A program made the translations under genes and the position numbers. From Trinickia dinghuensis (GTDB taxonomy: Bacteria > Pseudomonadota > Gammaproteobacteria > Burkholderiales > Burkholderiaceae): a stretch of DNA of 64,000 nt. Where the stretch lies: positions 248,001 through 312,000 of the forward strand of contig NZ_QRGA01000010.1 of the NCBI RefSeq assembly GCF_003367175.1. The letters run 5' to 3'. The notes beneath the pieces were generated by a model, which was given only the letters and a program-made list of their open reading frames with translations, searched no databases and was not told the origin of the DNA. Of this stretch, positions 48,004-49,441 are shown one piece after another; position 1 is the first letter of the stretch, and the number at the start of each line of letters is the position of its first letter.

Positions 48004-48393
48004 TCAGCCCTTCGCCGGTGCGGGCGGGTTAGCCAGTTCGGGAGGGGCGAACCAGTGCAGGGCCTGGAGCTTGTTGCCTTCGAACGTGCATTCGGCCGAG
48101 GCCGGCTTTGCGACGGGCTTGGCCTTGGGGTGCGGCGCGCTCGCGCCGGAGGCGTCCGATGCATTGGCGGTGGGTGCGGCAGCCGCCTCGAGCGTGCCCT
48201 CGACGACGACGCGCGAACCGTGGATGCCGACGCCGACATGCGAGATCGACAGCTTTTCGGGCGGCGTGGCCTTGCCCGCTGCTTCGCGCATTTGCGCCTT
48301 GCAGGCGCTGGGGTTCGAGTACAGCGTGCAGCCACCGGCCAAGAGGGGCGCGATCGTGAGCAGCGCGACCAGCATAAGCGGGGGCTTGTTCAT
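48004..48393 (-). CDS. Predicted small lipoprotein
   Basis: 129 residues. Signal sequence ends P-L-L-A-G-G-C-T-L, a good lipobox with Cys near 22. Four or more Cys in total (C-T-L-Y-S-N-P-S-A-C-K and E-C-T-F-E-G-N). The middle is V-G-V-G-I-H-G-S-R-V-V-V-E-G-T-L then an Ala/Pro/Lys linker. No family recognised. It lies just upstream of, and divergent from, the tRNA-Leu gene. Confidence 0.7.
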   Translation of the reverse strand: MNKPPLMLVALLTIAPLLAGGCTLYSNPSACKAQMREAAGKATPPEKLSISHVGVGIHGSRVVVEGTLEAAAAPTANASDASGASAPHPKAKPVAKPASAECTFEGNKLQALHWFAPPELANPPAPAKG

Positions 48394-48504
48394 CGGCGTT
48401 CCTGAGGTTCGAGAGGGCCGCCATTTTATCCGAGGACGCGTTCGGCCGTTCGCCAATGCCCATCTTGGCGCCGCCACCCTAGCGGAATTGCGCCCGACCG
48501 GTGG

Positions 48505-48510
48505 TAGAAT
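48505..48510 (+). promoter_or_regulatory. -10 element of the tRNA-Leu gene
   Basis: TAGAAT at 48505-48510 is followed by a GC-rich discriminator (CGCGTCCGCC), as is common at stringently controlled stable-RNA promoters. The -35 is not clear. The tRNA 5' end is at 48523. Confidence 0.5.
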
Positions 48511-48522
48511 CGCGTCCGCCCT

Positions 48523-48893
48523 GCCCGGGTGATGAAATTGGTAAACATAGCGGACTTAAGCAATTGAGTGCCCGGCTGGAAACGGCTGGTGCAGAACCCT
48601 TCAAATTCGGCGAACCCCCTGGCCCCTGCTCTCGCGATAATGCGCGCCGCAGCGACAGCCGAGGCAACGCCGAGCCAAGCCCGAAAACGCAGCTGCAAGG
48701 CTGTTTCGTGGAAGGTGTAGAGACTAGACGGGGGGCGCCTAATTCAGCGCGCACGAGTTTTCGTGTGCGTAGAGACGGCGAAGGCATAGTCCAGCGCACG
48801 AACGGCGACGCCTATCGCCGGCATCGAAAGATGTAGTGTGACGAAAATCCGCCGCCGAAAGGCTTGCCGGTTCGAGTCCGGTCCCGGGCACCA
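48523..48893 (+). tRNA. leuZ: tRNA-Leu(UAA), interrupted by a group I intron
   Basis: Exon 1 (48523-48557): acceptor GCCCGGG, D-arm ATG...CAT, anticodon 5' strand GCGGA and loop CTT. Exon 2 (48844-48893): AAAA, anticodon 3' strand TCCGC, variable arm (CGCC-GAAA-GGC), T-arm GCCGG-TTCGAGT-CCGGT, acceptor CCCGGGC, discriminator A and encoded CCA. Joined, they give an 85-base tRNA with a 7-base loop CUUAAAA and anticodon UAA. All stems pair; the T-stem has one G-U. The intron lies within the anticodon, after U34. The symbol is by analogy only. Confidence 0.93.
48558..48843 (+). ncRNA. Group I (IC3-type) self-splicing intron
   Basis: 286 bases. The conserved core elements are present in order: TCAAATTCGGCGAA at 48601-48614 (P/Q region), GGCAACGCCGAGCCAAGC at 48663-48680, AAGGTGTAGAGACTAGACGG at 48712-48731 (R/S, P7 region) and GAAGGCATAGTCCAG at 48780-48794. 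These match those I know from the Azoarcus tRNA-Ile and cyanobacterial tRNA-Leu introns. P1 can form between exon ACUU and intron GAGU (U-G at the 5' splice site), and the last intron base is G (48843). No open reading frame for a homing endonuclease is present. Confidence 0.95.
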
Positions 48894-48934
48894 GAACAAG
48901 ACAGAAAAGCCCCGACGCCTAGTGAAATCCATGC

Positions 48935-48975
48935 CGGGCTACGCTCGTCTGGACGCGCAACGCGAGCCCGTTTTT
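48935..48975 (+). terminator. Likely terminator of tRNA-Leu
   Basis: CGGGCT (48935-48940) pairs with AGCCCG (48965-48970), extended by CGC with GCG inside one bulge, followed by five T (48971-48975). The loop is large, so confidence is moderate. Confidence 0.5.
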
Positions 48976-48988
48976 CGCGGCATGGAAA

Positions 48989-49011
48989 GAAAAAGGCCGC
49001 TTATTGCGGCC
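48989..49011 (-). terminator. Terminator of the HEPN gene pair
   Basis: GGCCGC (48995-49000) pairs with GCGGCC (49006-49011), 5-base loop; on the minus strand a T-rich run follows (complement of 48989-48994). It lies 8 bases after the stop of the HEPN gene. Confidence 0.8.
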
Positions 49012-49018
49012 ACGGAGC

Positions 49019-49441
49019 TTAGGCTTGCTTAGGACTCTGCTGCTTGTCGTAGAGCGCGCGAGCGTCGCGCACTAACTTGAGGATCCTCCGCGAGTCCACA
49101 ACGCAGGAAGCAACGTTGTGCGAATCGACCGGGTCGGCAATTTCATACTCCGCGTCCTTGCGGGCTTTCTTCAAAACGGCCAGATTTCTGGCAGCCTGTT
49201 GAGCGCCGGTGCGACCAGGCGCTACCGCTTTTCCCCACCTAGCCAAACTATCGATAACTGCCTTGTGCGTTTCCCCACGGCTGAGTTCCGCCTCCGTCGG
49301 GACAAAGGGACGCGGCACACTATCACGACTCGCGTGCAAAGCACCGTAGTATGCGCGCGAGACGGCGCTTCTCTGGTCAGCTTCCTTACACGGCTCGACA
49401 AGCAATCGCTCAGCTGTCTCGATGAACTCCTCAGGAGACAC
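49019..49441 (-). CDS. HEPN-like protein
   Basis: 140 residues. SAVSRAYYGALHASRDS (about 25-41) has the R-x6-H pattern (Arg29, His36) of HEPN domains, which are often RNases or helical partners in toxin-antitoxin and defence systems. The rest is helical and basic with an R-x-Y-D-K-Q C-terminus. GTG 49441 is preferred: AGGAGG lies 6 bases upstream; ATG 49447 is directly against that motif. Its start overlaps the end of the upstream gene by 11 bases, so the two are co-translated. Lower G+C than core genes suggests transfer. HEPN assignment is by motif only. Confidence 0.6.
   Translation of the reverse strand: MSPEEFIETAERLLVEPCKEADQRSAVSRAYYGALHASRDSVPRPFVPTEAELSRGETHKAVIDSLARWGKAVAPGRTGAQQAARNLAVLKKARKDAEYEIADPVDSHNVASCVVDSRRILKLVRDARALYDKQQSPKQA

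Follow-up and report, generated by a model that had tools for sequence, protein, structure and literature searches.

A group I intron in the tRNA-Leu(UAA) gene of Trinickia, the sole UAA gene found in a draft genome, and its spread across Burkholderiaceae

How is UUA read in a bacterium whose only detected tRNA-Leu(UAA) gene is interrupted within the anticodon loop? This question was raised by positions 48523-48893 (plus strand) of a 64-kb stretch of a Trinickia genome, referred to throughout as the window, where a tRNA-Leu(UAA) gene is split by an intron. The reading preferred here (probability roughly 0.94) is that the sole UAA gene found carries a compact group I ribozyme after U34, which would be removed by two-step splicing and which has been inherited mostly by descent, with repeated exact losses.

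Gene structure was read from the sequence and with ARAGORN. Run without introns, ARAGORN returned zero tRNA in the 64-kb window. Run with introns on 48301-49100, it returned a single gene, tRNA-Leu(taa), spanning 48523-48893 and interrupted by a 286-nt intron after base 35 (U34). The joined exons comprise 85 nt, have the seven-base anticodon loop CTTAAAA and fold as a full cloverleaf with a long variable arm and a UAA anticodon. An earlier note, made from the letters alone, had read the exons, splice sites and intron at these positions, named the gene tRNA-Leu(UAA) with an 85-nt product and an insertion after U34, and expected standard tRNA searches to miss it. The first two readings agree with both sources, and the last is true of default ARAGORN. 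Upstream of the tRNA, a consensus scan did not find a sigma-70-type site; the hexamer TAGAAT was present 10-27 nt upstream of the tRNA at all 20 loci checked. Coordinates are collected in Table 1.

Table 1. Features of the intron-split tRNA-Leu(UAA) gene (window coordinates)
Feature	Position	Strand	Remarks
-10-like box TAGAAT	48505..48510	+	12 nt upstream of tRNA
5' exon of tRNA-Leu(UAA)	48523..48557	+	35 nt, last letters GCGGACTT (U34); ARAGORN and sequence reading
Group I intron	48558..48843	+	286 nt; begins AAGCAATTGAG, finishes GTGTGACG
P1	48555..48568	+	exon CUU and intron AA pair with UUGAG; splice-site U.G 48557/48566
P2 hairpin, GAAA loop	48570..48592	+	hand-placed, alignment-scored
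P3 5' strand	48597..48602	+	partner 48730-48735
P4 5' strand	48606..48612	+	partner 48668-48674
P5 5' strand	48618..48623	+	partner 48658-48664, one base bulged; intervening loop variable
P6 (48675-48676 with 48714-48715) and variable P6a (unscored)	48675..48715	+	
P7 5' strand GACTA	48722..48726	+	pseudoknot, partner 48787-48791 TAGTC
P3 3' strand	48730..48735	+	partner 48597-48602
P8 (48736-48739 with 48777-48780) and variable extension	48736..48780	+	
P7 3' strand TAGTC	48787..48791	+	partner 48722-48726
P9 (48795-48799 with 48836-48840)	48795..48840	+	includes P9a 48803-48820 and P9b 48822-48833 with GAAA loop
Terminal guanosine (omega G)	48843	+	G in 38/38 sequences
3' exon of tRNA-Leu(UAA)	48844..48893	+	50 nt, AAAATCCGC..CCGGGCACCA, CCA encoded

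The window belongs to a 49-contig draft assembly, in which 46 tRNA matches were obtained and all typed with ARAGORN. The leucine genes were CAG (two), UAG, CAA and GAG, plus UAA solely as the intron-split gene; a pattern search of the 49 contigs found no intact UAA anticodon arm. This tRNA list is incomplete, because the 46 include no Tyr, Thr-GGU or Gly-UCC gene and four CAU genes were left unsorted between Met and Ile2. The earlier note had allowed for this gene being the only UAA isoacceptor or for an intact copy elsewhere; the interrupted gene is the sole UAA gene found, in an incomplete draft where a second copy is conceivable. The same genome also contains an unusual class-II tRNA (L069; G000:C46:459097-459181), whose variable arm is long and whose anticodon is CAU.

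Codon usage was counted in the 39 predicted ORFs of the window, where UUA made up 14 of 15,737 codons. Two of the UUA-containing ORFs resemble scpB (ScpB) and rimP (RimP) genes by eye. Splicing is probably essential for UUA reading; loss of tRNA-Leu(UAA) might be tolerated because UUA is rare.

The intron has a group I core, with helices P3-P8 and the P7 pseudoknot all present. Conservation was assessed in an alignment of 38 pre-tRNAs from 38 genomes (the window copy and 37 relatives). These were derived from 65 UAA introns by removal of six of a second lineage and the divergent L087 (58 remaining), a 93% identity filter (39 remaining) and removal of L084, which has long inserts. P1, P2, P3, P4, P5, P6, P7, P8, P9, P9a and P9b were placed by hand; P6a and the P5/P8 loops were left unscored because the alignment there is unsafe. 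The splice-site U.G, the terminal G, the GAAA loop capping P2 and the UU that precedes the guide were invariant in 38/38, as were the core columns, and peripheral loops varied freely.

Standard pairs occupied 96.9% of 2238 base-pair cells in the 38 sequences, against 31-42% when partners were slid by 1-3 columns. Because the window sequence served as the template for the structure, this comparison is biased towards it and against the slid alternatives. Independent of that bias, both-side changes were present at 18 of 59 pairs; they numbered 113 cells, where shuffling gave a mean of 37. P7 is invariant within the lineage of the window and therefore uninformative there. In the sister lineage it reads GAGCA/TGCTC in place of GACTA/TAGTC, a difference of two compensated pairs. 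GACTA/TAGTC was present in 59 of 65 UAA introns; GAGCA/TGCTC was present in the other six and in 12 of 13 CAA introns.

The Rfam model RF00028, proposed in the earlier note as a check, gave a divided answer. Against the window it stayed below the gathering score (cut-off 50 bits), and a scan of the whole genome at E<=10 gave zero matches, though the local stretch searched alone scored 27.5 bits (E 4.8e-5) with the full model covered. Six of seven other introns of the same kind were matched at 25.7-51.5 bits, one of them above the cut-off, and a tRNA-Ile2-type intron (L140) scored 29.1 bits, close to the window intron. The seventh, a tRNA-Ser intron (L136), was not matched at E<=1. Given these scores, the weak score of the window intron looks like a limit of the generic model. 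Group I identity is confirmed by the comparative evidence from aligned sequences, not by the Rfam score alone.

Features of subclass IC3 are a compact core, GAAA loops L2 and L9, a CCUAAG-like receptor in P8 and the lack of P5abc. The loop L2 was GAAA in 38/38 sequences, the P9b loop was GAAA in 35/38 and P8 contained CCTAA(G/T/A) in 29/38. Of the group I (IC3) assignment given in the earlier note, group I is borne out by core and covariation, and IC3 is consistent with the GAAA loops and the P8 motif. Intron lengths were 214-368 nt (65 UAA introns) and 232-250 nt (13 CAA introns). None of the 78 introns examined, that of the window included, has room for a homing endonuclease gene, the longest stop-free run in six frames being 106 codons.

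Occurrence was determined in a sample of 200 Burkholderiaceae genomes. The UAA intron was present in 77 and an intact intronless UAA gene in 118; both together were found in none, with no overlap between the 74 introns found by similarity and the 86 genes found by the first pattern, nor between the three introns added later and those 86, and with a wider anticodon-stem pattern run on 38 genomes. The 77 comprised these 74, G037 and G053, and G016 (a 28-letter match). ARAGORN confirmed 65 plus G037 and G053; nine were identified by BLAST rows alone and G016 by its 28-letter match. The 118 comprised the 86 and a further 32 with a different anticodon stem (three ARAGORN-checked). The remainder of the sample was G121, with a split gene and an intact replacement, and four genomes (G014, G015, G035 and G057) assigned neither state. 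A 5'-junction scan of named genomes gave 110 stretches; among the 80 listed, two were chance matches.

Carriage was universal in sampled Trinickia (11/11), Burkholderia (genus code g12; 22/22), genus code g14 (3/3) and Mycetohabitans with Vallotia (g8; 8/8). It was patchy in Paraburkholderia (g21; 12/21) and in genus code g11, where 2/22 had the UAA intron. The earlier note had treated the locus as a single oddity, a view that does not stand with 77 of 200 family genomes carrying the intron. In the eight g8 genomes the UAA and CAA genes are both intron-bearing, and one search pattern detected no intact copy of either. The UAA gene of Vallotia lies on a 61-72 kb plasmid in genomes of 1.1-1.2 Mb. 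On the 72-kb plasmid of Candidatus Vallotia tarda (NZ_OU343032.1; L342), from a 1.2-Mb endosymbiont, the intron-bearing tRNA-Leu(UAA) was observed approximately 1.1 kb from rpsU, a plasmid thus with translation genes. Two Mycetohabitans loci have antisense protein annotations over the split tRNA: a 'hypothetical protein' from the intron to beyond the 3' exon (NZ_CP062169.1; L343) and a J-domain protein over the 3' exon end (NC_014718.1; L341). Both are likely over-annotations.

An intron tree was built and read against genus names. For this, 41 loci were tried, L200 and L228 (3' exon out of reach) and L203 and L241 (chance matches) were dropped, and two were added to give 39. AcnB was tried as a species-tree marker and dropped, since a near-full-length match was obtained in just 12 of 30 genomes. 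The introns group mostly by genus: Trinickia, Mycetohabitans with Vallotia, and Glomeribacter each hold together, as do two eight-row sets, one of Paraburkholderia and one of Burkholderia (81/88). The window intron falls in a seven-row set (95/95) in which all other rows share its genus code (Trinickia symbiotica, T. fusca, T. dabaoshanensis, Trinickia sp. Y13 and two rows labelled Paraburkholderia sp.), so that the chromosome described as Burkholderia-like in the earlier note can be placed in Trinickia. Other Paraburkholderia rows are scattered, with P. kururiensis beside Mycetohabitans (81/96). The support mark was reached by 13 of 35 inner branches, and deep forks are unsupported.

Loci with and without the intron were compared in 15 plus/minus pairs, of which six have kilobases of upstream sequence in common; in the other nine, little except the tRNA is alike. 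In the pair formed by P. heleia (L296, with intron) and G020 (L285, without intron), approximately 2.4 kb of upstream sequence is common, in two pieces at about 80% identity; the exons align end to end and the intron is absent from L285. The same pattern was obtained for L285/L298, L286/L296, L295/L297 and L285/L301, and a weaker one for L291/L302. For the genes upstream of the split tRNA in the window, matches at other loci were confined to Trinickia (L304), the one exception being a weak match to a lipoprotein in L293 and L294. The comparison of the locus in related genomes that the earlier note had proposed thus gave shared loci, exact intron-minus alleles and a conserved core. We infer that the intron-minus alleles at common loci arose by exact loss, gain being less likely. 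Read together from these sequences, the intron appears to be old and, within the Burkholderia group, mostly passed on vertically.

A second intron lineage was also found. tRNA-Leu(CAA) with a 232-250 nt intron after C34 was present in 13 of the 200 family genomes (12 by pattern, and G028). These introns group with the UAA introns found in genus code g3 and in other families, and separately from the lineage of the window; support for the fork was 83/91, or 94/94 with the tRNA-Ser intron (a long branch), both below the support mark. In a class-wide sample of 369 genomes the exact core motif occurred in nine, including the genome of the window and one stretch that is not an intron (L143). The other seven were four tRNA-Leu(UAA), one tRNA-Leu(CAA), one tRNA-Ser(UGA) and L140, which ARAGORN calls Leu(cag) and which is read here as Ile2(CAU). 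By eye, L140 is like the window kind in its core strings, GAAA P2 loop and CCUAAG P8 start. The tRNA-Ser(UGA) gene (L136; G479) has a 217-nt group-I-like intron whose P7 was read by eye as GATCA/TGATC. The region of the intron-bearing tRNA-Leu(CAA) was also partially matched, at 69-74% identity, by two Cupriavidus replicons (H40, H41) and ten further sequences, mostly Bradyrhizobium plasmids (H42-H51). These twelve may be further intron-bearing tRNAs.

Recent homing of a mobile intron between genomes would account for the patchy genera (12/21 and 2/22), for a second lineage found across the class in tRNA-Leu(UAA), tRNA-Leu(CAA) and possibly further tRNAs, and for the scattered Paraburkholderia rows. 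It is disfavoured and considered unlikely, since an endonuclease gene was present in 0/78 introns, carriage was universal in sampled Trinickia (11), g12 (22), g14 (3) and g8 (8), and Trinickia, Mycetohabitans with Vallotia, Glomeribacter and the two eight-row sets cohere in the tree. That the locus is instead a dead relic, a tRNA pseudogene with a decayed intron while UUA is read by another gene, is hardly credible. The two exons fold as a complete tRNA; the core columns, U.G and terminal G are invariant in 38 sequences whose loops vary freely and whose pairs covary; an intact second gene was found in 0/77 intron-bearing genomes by the first pattern, the wider pattern having been run on G016 of these; and the gene is retained in Vallotia genomes of 1.1-1.2 Mb. 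Set against this are the RF00028 score under the cut-off, the rarity of UUA codons and the draft state of the assembly.

Rarity of UUA also bears on regulation. The bldA tRNA of Streptomyces limits UUA decoding, and splicing could in principle act as a similar control here, with 14 of 15,737 codons in few ORFs being UUA. Such control is judged very improbable: two of the UUA-containing ORFs look by eye like ordinary ScpB and RimP genes, and the intron is absent from sister species, with no trace left.

With descent and repeated exact loss of a group I ribozyme preferred, the following sequence of steps is proposed. The transcript would fold such that exon CUU pairs with the intron guide in P1, and a bound guanosine would attack after U34, the predicted P1 cleavage site. 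The UU preceding the guide could then swap intron AA for 3' exon AA. The freed 5' exon would attack after the terminal G and the exons would join, giving the 85-nt UUA-reading tRNA. Both chemical steps and splicing in the cell are predicted from exons, splice sites, core and pseudoknot as read in the sequence, and proteins may help. The intron, with no gene of its own, would be transmitted mostly vertically and repeatedly lost exactly.

Islands that split tRNA-Leu genes were found in three genomes (G100, G194 and G121), and a corresponding left end in a fourth (G164). In G100, G164 and G194, a complete intron-bearing tRNA-Leu(CAA) gene is preceded, approximately 200 nt upstream, by the broken 5' half of an intronless one. 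The missing 3' half is 49,544 nt downstream in G100 (L132-L133-L350-L351; G100:C62:20494-70038) and 18,003 nt downstream in G194 (L130-L131; G194:C6:45887-63890); the left end of G164 (L134) is like these and its contig ends before the other end. In G100 and G194 the acceptor stem of each 3' half is complementary to the corresponding 5' half, and the halves, once rejoined, form a tRNA-Leu(CAA) fold; within the stretches read, the core GGACTCAAAA is confined to the two island ends. Near the left end of each is the complete tRNA-Leu(CAA), in which the intron breaks GGACTCAAAA, and beside the right end a tyrosine integrase (PF00589). Cargo comprised Dsr1-like and PD-Lambda-3-like proteins in G194 and a secretion ATPase, a coupling protein and a replication initiator in G100. 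By one pattern, no intact CAA gene was found elsewhere in the three genomes (G164 being 88% complete). In G121 a 9,258-nt island (L404; G121:C6:187851-197109) splits an intronless tRNA-Leu(UAA) at GACTTAAAATC, with an integrase beside the left end and an intronless replacement UAA tRNA near the other. GACTTAAAATC was absent from 65/65 intron-bearing UAA genes and from the window. G178 has an intron-bearing tRNA-Leu(CAA) with no orphan half upstream (L093) and, on a different contig, a lone 3' half whose T loop is altered (L352); this genome is perhaps intermediate between island-borne and resident intron genes.

Apart from the intron, these islands show the arrangement of tRNA-dependent lysogeny in actinobacteriophages. 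In the available text on that system, a tyrosine integrase acts at a roughly 10-bp common core within a host tRNA, which is left unrestored, and the element carries a replacement tRNA of the same isotype (PMC10865867). No protective intron is described in that text for the phage replacement tRNA (PMC10865867), whereas the CAA replacement on the Burkholderiaceae islands is intron-bearing; the G100 island also differs from the phages in its conjugation-type genes. Anticodon-loop introns might thus shield tRNA-Leu from integrases, islands might exploit this and spread introns, and the window intron might persist for the same reason. This idea is tentative and rather doubtful. GGACTCAAAA is kept in two of 13 intron-bearing CAA genes (Vallotia L079 and L122), because their introns begin with A's, and the G121 replacement UAA tRNA is intronless and keeps 10 of 11 core letters. 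Split genes numbered 1/119 for intronless UAA and 0/77 for intron-bearing UAA, too few for statistics. Intron-bearing replacement tRNAs on islands were not found reported in open-licence literature, a weak sign of novelty, and the arrangement could be new in its kind of use. If true, shielding would give a concrete, testable reason for the anticodon-loop site of bacterial tRNA introns.

Several known systems are comparable to the Trinickia intron. A tRNA-Leu(UAA) intron was reportedly described in a gamma-proteobacterium by Vepritskiy et al. in 2002; tRNA and intron class are the same and the host is likewise a proteobacterium, but a single isolate was concerned, against family-wide occurrence in Burkholderiaceae. 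The intron of cyanobacterial and plastid tRNA-Leu(UAA) lies after U34, as in the Trinickia gene. It is also like the Trinickia intron in isoacceptor, small size and lack of an endonuclease; the cyanobacterial hosts are of another phylum. One exact position is common to the cyanobacterial and plastid introns of tRNA-Leu(UAA), while 37/38 is given as the site of most tRNA introns in bacteria and plastids (PMC4033280); the latter site disagrees with the Trinickia gene. Introns in cyanobacterial tRNA-Leu and in the tRNA-Ile of Azoarcus are already known (PMC4033280, PMC11408192), as are tRNA-Ile2 introns in Acidovorax and Burkholderia (PMC8450103). The Ile2(CAU) introns of these three genera differ from that of Trinickia in tRNA and anticodon. 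Group I introns of tmRNA follow the same U.G and terminal-G boundary rules and are of the compact self-splicing type in a tRNA-like gene; their site is the T-loop, whereas that of Trinickia is the anticodon (PMC11915505).

tRNA-Leu(UAA) introns in Burkholderiaceae were not found reported in open-licence literature, which is a weak sign of novelty. The kind of intron is itself known; what is notable is its wide occurrence across the family in the sole UAA gene found. Generic tools overlook the gene (default ARAGORN, and Rfam at its cut-off), and annotated tRNA sets of intron-bearing genomes may lack UAA through missed detection. Closely related genomes that differ in whether a shared locus contains the intron provide clean pairs for measuring its cost or gain. 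In a large bacterial group, the sole UUA-reading tRNA found relies on an RNA that is predicted to excise itself.
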